Position numbers and translations under genes: made by a program. Below the pieces are notes generated by a model. It saw nothing but the letters and a program-made list of their open reading frames with translations. It was not told the origin of the DNA and ran no database searches. 64,000 bases of DNA from Elusimicrobiaceae bacterium (GTDB lineage: Bacteria > Elusimicrobiota > Elusimicrobia > Elusimicrobiales > Elusimicrobiaceae). Each line of letters opens with the position of its first letter. Position 1 is the stretch's first letter. This document shows positions 62,385 to 63,236 of this stretch, in pieces. The DNA is taken from contig JAFXOI010000035.1 in assembly GCA_017528825.1 (NCBI GenBank), positions 1 through 64,000 of the forward strand. Direction: 5' to 3'.

Positions 62385-62427
62385 AAAAATAACGCGACAC
62401 AATTTATTTCCGTGCCGCGTTATTTTT
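62385..62427. terminator. Terminator between thrS and pilin
   Basis: AAAAATAACGCG/CGCGTTATTTTT (62385-62396/62416-62427), 12-bp stem, active in both directions; it covers the pilin stop codon. Confidence 0.9.
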
Positions 62428-62956
62428 AGGGAAGTGTAAATCCTTTACTGTTTTGAAATTGAACACCTCCAAATAAGTTGATACAGTAACTTCCTTGTGG
62501 TAAATTAAAACCTGCGGAGGCAGATTCATAACACGAAATTTGATTTTCAGGTAAATTATCGCGTTTAAACCAATATTGGAAACCTCCTCCTTTATATTTT
62601 CCTTTTATTCTATAGATTTCTATTCCATGGTAAGGAACGGAAGAATTATAAAGTAAAATGCTCCATTCATCATTTGATTTCCAATCGGTGAGCATATCGT
62701 AATTAAAAGGATTGTATTTCTCTGTAAATGGAATTTGTACATCTAATTCATCAAATTTAGTGGGATAAGTACCGTTAGCCAAATAGTAGGATTGTTCAGC
62801 TTGCGCAACTGCCTTGAGTAGAGTTTGTGCCTGAACAGCTTTTGCTTTTTCCACTGCTTTTTCATATTGCGGTAAGGCAATGGCCGATAAAATGCCAATG
62901 ATGAGTACTACCACCAACAGTTCTATAAGGGTAAAACCCTTGTTATATTTCTTCAT
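62426..62956 (-). CDS. Type IV pilin-like protein with long structured leader
   Basis: 176 residues from ATG 62956, with AAGGAG 7 nt upstream; an in-frame ATG at 63007 lies before this site and inside a hairpin. Leader MKKYNKG, then FTLIELLVVVLIIGILSAIALPQYEKAVEKAK (Gly at -1, Glu at +5). The head (TYPTKFDELDVQIPF) resembles the small pilin at 17749. Two Cys (ISCYES...SYCINLF) may form the C-terminal disulfide loop. It is the only pilin here without the poly-T promoter; instead it has a long folded leader. Confidence 0.87.
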   Translation of the reverse strand: MKKYNKGFTLIELLVVVLIIGILSAIALPQYEKAVEKAKAVQAQTLLKAVAQAEQSYYLANGTYPTKFDELDVQIPFTEKYNPFNYDMLTDWKSNDEWSILLYNSSVPYHGIEIYRIKGKYKGGGFQYWFKRDNLPENQISCYESASAGFNLPQGSYCINLFGGVQFQNSKGFTLP

Positions 62957-62989
62957 GTGTATTCTCCTTTTTTTCTGTTGTTGGAAAAT

Positions 62990-63200
62990 ACAAATAAAAA
63001 CGGCCATTTATTTGTAAGCTCACGCTAATGCCTTACAATATAAACAGCCGTAGTTTGCCACTCAGTGAGTGGCAAACATTCAGCACAAAACGCCCGGGTA
63101 ATTAGTCCGTTCATTTTGTGCTTGATATCGGCTGTTTTTGGATTAGCGTGAGATTATCCTTGCGGATAATGCTCTATACTCTTCGTATAGTTCCAAAAAC
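62990..63200 (-). ncRNA. Candidate structured leader RNA (riboswitch-like) of pilin
   Basis: About 210 nt between a promoter and the pilin ribosome site. Perfect helices (plus coordinates): P1 63019-63029/63142-63152 (11 bp), P2 63042-63050/63129-63137 (9), P3 63053-63063/63067-63077 (11), P4 63082-63090/63114-63122 (9), P5 63153-63159/63164-63170 (7), P6 63174-63179/63185-63190 (6), P7 62990-62998/63007-63015 (9). P1 closes P2, which closes P3 and P4. On the minus strand P5 has a GCAA (GNRA) loop. A 9-nt stretch 63134-63142 is also complementary to 63192-63200, which competes with P2 and P1. No known riboswitch class was recognised. A small mobile repeat is the alternative. Confidence 0.6.
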
Positions 63201-63207
63201 AGAATAA

Positions 63208-63236
63208 ATTGTAATACTACCTAATCAGTATAACAA
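63208..63236 (-). promoter_or_regulatory. Promoter of the leader RNA and pilin
   Basis: On the minus strand TTGTTA (63236 to 63231), 17 nt, TACAAT (63213 to 63208). Transcription would start near 63201, exactly at the first base of the folded region. Confidence 0.65.

Follow-up and report, generated by a model that had tools for sequence, protein, structure and literature searches.

In the 64,000-nucleotide stretch of an Elusimicrobiaceae genome analysed here (contig JAFXOI010000035.1; hereafter the window), the minus strand carries at 62950-63232 one copy of a structured leader element that stands before a type IV pilin-like gene. We regard it as practically certain that this copy belongs to a real family of conserved structured leader RNAs, which in one gut bacterium precedes about 40 genes for pilins and some for other surface proteins. 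From sequence comparison it further appears probable that the leader gates a terminator-like hairpin and the ribosome site by two mutually exclusive folds. An earlier note, made from the window's letters alone, had proposed a possible new switch-like leader RNA upstream of a pilin gene; this is supported by the homologues, the lack of a match in Rfam and the co-directional, mostly pilin, genes that follow the element.

A leader family upstream of surface genes

Searched at the DNA level, the window's own genome gave 40 matches, and a covariance model (R1) built on the 5' part of the element found about 45 copies in the same 1.5-Mb genome. Across the class, R1 placed the element in 80 of 235 genomes, and across the phylum in 94 of 341 genomes and 8 of 100 genera, with two families from different classes; since 10-15 candidates were scored per genome in these multi-genome searches, copy numbers there are lower bounds. 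The earlier note had asked for homologues and covarying pairs, and homologues with many compensatory changes were indeed found. All 14 Elusimicrobiota pilin relatives tested (in named contigs) lacked the element, which is thus not simply part of every pilin gene. A search of IMG/VR for a phage origin with the exact core pattern gave no match, though with one exact pattern this was a weak test.

Almost every copy in the window's own genome is followed, some 40 nt further on, by a gene whose product begins with a type IV pilin signal. Within 330 nt, 147/156 copies of the window's family (family 1; median distance 40 nt) and 49/58 of the second family (family 2) have a ribosome site and open reading frame (ORF) in the same direction, compared with 9/153 in a reversed-segment control. 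Pilins make up about two thirds of the downstream genes in family 1 and half in family 2. The remaining targets include lipoproteins, beta-barrel-like proteins, a sulfatase-like membrane protein, glycosyltransferases and methylase-like genes, names which were given from sequence appearance, the Pfam scan having covered the window's genes. These genes rule out an association with pilins alone, and the regulon is wider than the surface pilin considered in the earlier note. The own genome holds 113 pilin N-methylation motifs (one of them at 62873-62950 in the window), about a third of which carry the leader. Pilins have been reported as the sole encoded appendages of Endomicrobiaceae (PMC11257099). 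Judged by its conserved fold, with compensatory changes, just upstream of co-directional genes, the element is a cis-regulatory leader RNA.

Conserved fold and pseudoknot

The fold was derived from an alignment of 31 copies (A2) with RNAalifold. The parts of the window copy, in the order of transcription, are as follows.

63227-63232, minus strand: likely extended -10 box (TGT-TATACT)
63193-63202, minus strand: 5' strand of H0, CTGTTTTTGG, at the 5' side of the element and almost invariant; its partner is 63132-63141 (99.7% of cells paired in A2)
63174-63190, minus strand: hairpin P5, CTATAC-GAAGA-GTATAG; two-sided changes in 5/5 counted pairs
63153-63170, minus strand: hairpin P6, ATTATCC-GCAA-GGATAAT; length varies, loop often of GNRA type
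63142-63152, minus strand: 5' strand of P1 (the "tail"); its partner is the apical loop of T, 63019-63029, which is the 3' strand of P1
63132-63141, minus strand: H0', CCAAAAACAG; alternatively its end and 63129-63131 form the 5' strand of P2
63082-63122, minus strand: hairpin P3; two-sided changes in 14/16 pairs
63098-63106, minus strand: tip loop of P3, AC-TAATTA-C, 9 nt, with a self-complementary hexamer at 63099-63104
63053-63077, minus strand: hairpin P4; two-sided changes in 7/8 pairs
63001-63050, minus strand: T, a hairpin that resembles a terminator (CGGCTGTTTAT ... ATAAATGGCCG) and contains the inner stem T2; 95% of cells paired
62996-63000, minus strand: U-tract after T; the helix over the ribosome site also starts here
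62975-62985, minus strand: site 2 (TCCAACAACAG), second partner of the H0 5' strand (helix P0); paired in the full-length fold
62950-63000, minus strand: helix R, formed by 62983-63000 with 62950-62967, which hides GGAG and ATG
62426-62956, minus strand: type IV pilin-like gene (MKKYNKGFTLIELLVVV...); PF07963 N_methyl (4.5e-10) and PF16732 ComP_DUS (1.7e-6)

Unprompted, RNAalifold returned H0 (10 bp), P5, P3, P4 and the long 3' hairpin T. With H0 and T in place, 96% of the cells in A2 are paired and 29 pairs have changed on both sides (17.5 +/- 2.0 in shuffled alignments), with a covariation score of 0.385 compared with 0.187 for shuffled and 0.07-0.12 for slid alignments. Variation in H0 and the base of T is mostly of the U-A to U-G kind, and in P3, P4, P5 and upper T mostly of the fully compensatory kind. 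The loop of P5 is GNRNA in family 1 and GAAA in family 2, and in three distant copies (L215, L216 and L226) H0, P1 and T persist in changed sequence, as judged by eye.

The alignment step is biased towards its own consensus, and P1, which no nested method uses, is therefore the stronger evidence. In this 10-bp pseudoknot the apical loop of T is paired to the 8-11 nt that directly precede H0'. Over 160 copies, the complementarity was 23.7 within a copy and 11.2 (standard deviation 2.5) between strands of different copies. The 144 copies that were compared hold 117 distinct 10-mers, and yet the pairs are Watson-Crick in 1411 cases (97%) and G-U in 44. P1 reaches at least 7 bp in 144/148 distinct copies, and in family 2 it does so in 62/63, mostly with 10-11 bp. 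H0, T, P3 to P5 and P1 are in this comparison all backed by pair-preserving or compensatory changes. To our knowledge no other leader has a terminator loop pseudoknotted to an upstream domain by a 10-bp "key" that varies from copy to copy. The idea that P1 is selected for difference within a genome was not supported, near-identical pairs being if anything commoner than in column shuffles. In three copies (L076, L112 and L127) the P1 strands mismatch each other, which could reflect chimeric assembly across repeats or genuine swaps.

Two explanations at the level of DNA have to be weighed against this record. The element could be a miniature inverted-repeat transposable element (MITE), bounded by the inverted repeats CTGTTTTTGGAA...TTCCAAAAACAG and lying near genes by chance; the copies are dispersed, their ends have inverted complementarity and some stand at contig breaks. 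However, the excess of co-directional ribosome sites and ORFs over the control is not expected of a MITE, the 3' repeat is found in only 54/159 family-1 copies, the conserved parts extend past the repeats to the promoter and the start codon, and P1 covaries in about 200 sequences. The earlier note had named this alternative itself, and we reject it on the orientation, position and ends of the element, leaving it a negligible probability. Somewhat less improbable, though still very unlikely, is an element for pilin variation, whose inverted repeats would promote recombination or gene conversion among pilin genes. The 113 pilin N-terminal motifs in one genome, the homology offered by a shared leader and a shared pilin N-terminus, and the competence genes reported in relatives (PMC8809381) would suit it. 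Against it, the changes that preserve pairing, among them U-A to U-G in H0 and T, are the mark of an RNA, non-pilin genes carry the leader, and P1 differs between copies where recombination would want identity.

The window copy itself folds strongly. The minus-strand RNA 62980-63205 (226 nt) has a predicted energy of -91.8 kcal/mol, compared with -47.2 +/- 4.2 for shuffles (z = -10.6, 0/200). The plus strand is foldable too (z = -8.4), so that fold energy alone cannot fix the strand, which is fixed by the promoter, the ribosome site, the direction of the gene and the homologues. All seven helices drawn in the earlier note are present in the window copy at the positions given there. The nested arrangement of P1 and P2, offered as the fold, is not the conserved one, the copies showing H0 and T with P1 as a pseudoknot; and the GCAA tetraloop that had been placed on P5 is on the second 5' hairpin, P6, where the loop differs among copies.

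Two exclusive folds and their possible function

Positions 63132-63142 (TCCAAAAACAG) are the perfect complement of 63192-63202 (CTGTTTTTGGA), and they also make up P2 and the base of P1 in the nested fold. The two pairings share these letters, and the mutual exclusion of folds suspected from the first inspection is therefore real. To build P2, the nested fold takes up H0' and T's 5' strand, and it accordingly excludes H0 and T.

According to our hypothesis, the leader would alternate between two states. In the OFF state, the 5' strand of H0 would pair with CCAAAAACAG, freeing CGGCUGUU for the U-tailed hairpin T, whose apical loop would dock onto the tail beside H0 through P1. Transcription would stop at the U-tract; failing that, the RNA after T would cover the ribosome site and start codon by forming R. 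In the ON state, the 5' strand of H0 would be held by its second partner copy just before the ribosome site (P0), and CAG-YCG would pair with CGGCUG (P2), so that T would be blocked and the ribosome site open. The family, its position before genes, H0, P3, P4, P5, T and P1, and R in family 1, rest on the comparison of copies; we infer that T terminates, that P2 and P0 represent one of the working states, and that the part made up of H0, P5, P6 and P3 responds to a signal, be it a ligand, a protein or a partner RNA. A cyclic nucleotide or metabolite as the signal is a guess.

Several observations favor this hypothesis. In 145/160 copies the GCCG at the end of T runs into 5-8 U, a stem and U-tract (U5-U8) before a gene that by its sequence can be called terminator-like. 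Site 2 recurs, in that UCCAAAAA (with at most one mismatch) is found after T in 52/63 family-2 and 54/159 family-1 copies, where about 10 are expected. Helix R is gene-specific: its self-complementarity exceeded that of every permutation in 38 own-genome copies, and the comparison of self with non-self gave P <= 0.0002 both in the own genome and in the remainder of family 1, and P = 0.007 in family 2. In the energy predictions the window RNA of terminated length folds into OFF (-87.0 kcal/mol), and the 226-nt and 276-nt RNAs have ON as their optimum. For the 276-nt RNA, which runs through the start codon, the optimum combines P0, P1 and P2 (-100.6 kcal/mol) with an open ribosome site, and the centroid has H0 and T with R (-95.4 kcal/mol) and pairs both the ribosome site and the AUG. 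Over 144 copies, ON lies 6.2 kcal/mol above OFF, and 2.4 kcal/mol above it once the RNA extends past T. The nested P1/P2 fold was rejected as the ground state, H0 with T being lower in about 90% of the copies at terminated length even with P1 uncounted.

However, the hypothesis should be interpreted with some caution, since a number of results weigh against it. The promoter and terminator scan did not call T, whose loop is longer than the scan allows. OFF is still the lower state in 69% of the 144 full-length RNAs, the order of ON and OFF in the window copy depends on where the RNA is cut, and the energy models leave out the pseudoknot. The columns of P2 are nearly invariant (99.6% paired, with zero two-sided changes), which leaves conservation as the support for this helix. 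Moreover, P0, in the form of site 2, is present in only a third of the family-1 copies, and R is weak in family 2.

An alternative is an unregulated structured 5' untranslated region (UTR), which we consider unlikely, although it is the least unlikely of the alternatives to a switch. The compact pseudoknotted fold would do no more than shield abundant surface-protein mRNAs from decay, and the U-tract would pair with A-rich first codons rather than serve termination. Surface genes are as a rule highly expressed, OFF comes out as the optimum in about 90% of copies although P1 is left uncounted, and the U-tract belongs to helix R in family 1. Such a UTR would leave unexplained why in both families a GC-rich stem is directly followed by 5-8 U, and why there is a helix that covers the ribosome site and a duplicated partner of H0.

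If two exclusive folds do gate these genes, about 45 copies before about 40 of 113 pilin-motif genes would make the leader the main known layer of surface control in a phylum with little experimental genetics.

Within 75 nt after T, another sequence, GAGCCCGA, replaces UCCAAAAA in 22/160 family-1 copies (expected about 1); it could pair with the UUGGGUU strand of T2.

Relation to known RNA elements

Searches of Rfam 15 at gathering and permissive thresholds gave chance matches only, and neither the element in the window nor six diverse homologue loci scored above the curated threshold of any family. The earlier statement that no known riboswitch class is recognizable thus holds, no Rfam family matching the element, and a literature search found no paper on an RNA leader of Elusimicrobiota pilins. 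With riboswitch and attenuator leaders the element shares its place as a 5' leader with a promoter, a conserved fold, a U-tailed hairpin just before the gene, a competing pairing that would undo that hairpin, and a helix that covers the ribosome site. It differs in having no known aptamer, in its regulon of surface genes and in the variable 10-bp pseudoknot into the terminator loop. The element would work like an attenuator or riboswitch platform, and the label riboswitch would need a ligand.

A riboswitch in the strict sense, with H0, P5, P6 and P3 as an aptamer for a small molecule such as a cyclic nucleotide that controls surface genes, strikes us as rather improbable, slightly more so than the unregulated UTR. 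Its size, short conserved single-stranded stretches, attenuator-like platform and functionally linked regulon are what such a riboswitch would have; however, there is no match to an Rfam riboswitch, the candidates for a pocket (the P1 strands, P6 and the tip of P3) mostly vary freely, and the invariant parts are paired. Riboswitches for cyclic di-GMP (c-di-GMP) and other cyclic dinucleotides control type IV pili and surface attachment (PMC6366702), and leader control of pilus and surface genes is what the element shares with them; in the Rfam searches it matched them neither in sequence nor in structure.

The tip of P3 and possible dimerisation

The loop of P3 has two main layouts, 9 nt (2 + hexamer + 1) and 7 nt (2 + tetramer + 1). 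The cores of these loops are TAATTA (87 copies), GATC (45), TTATAA (13), TTGCAA, AGCT and TTCGAA, and they are palindromic in 150/162 copies; loops of further sizes have TCATGA, GGCC and GACG. A self-complementary core is thus kept through changes of sequence, as six palindromic hexamers and GATC, AGCT and GGCC. No 6-nt palindrome occurs in the P4, P5 and P6 loops of these RNAs. In family 1, 11/22 distinct P3 loops are palindromic compared with 1.3 expected from shuffles, several of them sharing one hexamer. Self-complementary tips (UAAUUA, GAUC, UUAUAA, UCAUGA and the like) are in the majority and, by their likeness to retroviral kissing loops, suggest dimerisation. A universal role of the tip is opposed by the GCUAUG and UCGCUA tips of family 2 and by plain tips in the g76 copies.

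We put forward only tentatively, as the less probable reading of these tips, that leaders form kissing dimers, both among transcripts of one gene and across genes with a common type of tip. Leader abundance would then feed back on how the RNAs of about 40 surface genes fold and on their expression. The copy-specific 10-bp P1 would then keep the switch of each leader in cis.

The dimerisation loop of human immunodeficiency virus 1 (HIV-1) has the same 2 + 6 + 1 layout as the 9-nt loops. With the retroviral dimerisation sites (HIV-1 SL1; GACG of Moloney murine leukaemia virus, MoMuLV) the element shares a hairpin tip with a self-complementary core and, in a few copies, a GACG tetraloop, the known two-pair kissing loop of MoMuLV (PMC5874298, PMC7357161). 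It differs in being bacterial, in standing on about 40 mRNAs per genome and in that some tips are plain or non-palindromic, and its dimerisation is putative. A possible RNA-only self-association in bacteria is shared with ROOL, GOLLD and OLE (PMC12286853), which are large stand-alone noncoding RNAs, whereas the element is an mRNA leader. Taken as a whole, it represents a new RNA family, a variant architecture of a known kind, possibly with a self-kissing module. If true, the self-complementary tips would extend retrovirus-like RNA kissing to the control of bacterial mRNAs.

Promoter and variation around the element

The promoter proposed earlier, TTGTTA-17-TACAAT, is doubtful and probably wrong, the spacing of the boxes ranging across copies from about 13 to more than 60 nt. 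About 20 nt upstream of it lies an extended -10 sequence (TGTTATACT). The pattern TGnTATA(C/A)T is kept across copies, at a variable distance from the element, and since only this extended -10 keeps its form in other copies, the earlier promoter is the less certain of the two. An extended -10 box at 63227-63232 with a start near 63220 is thus the likely better fit; promoter-like sites of this kind were found by the promoter scan at chance rate. Many family-1 copies have, between the -10 box and H0, a variable hairpin together with an AAGGAG box, and no start codon is obvious there.

Two contigs of the collection, G000:C15 (1-141) and C16 (1-165), start inside identical leader copies, so the element breaks the assembly. 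In one family-2 genome a dispersed repeat (GCTATGGAAAAATAACTGCTGACAGCC...) follows T at L207, L218, L227, L232, L234 and L239. In another observation from a family-2 genome, two tandem leaders at L214 (1263-1365 and 1501-1609, minus strand) stand before a single gene resembling a DNA-modifying enzyme.
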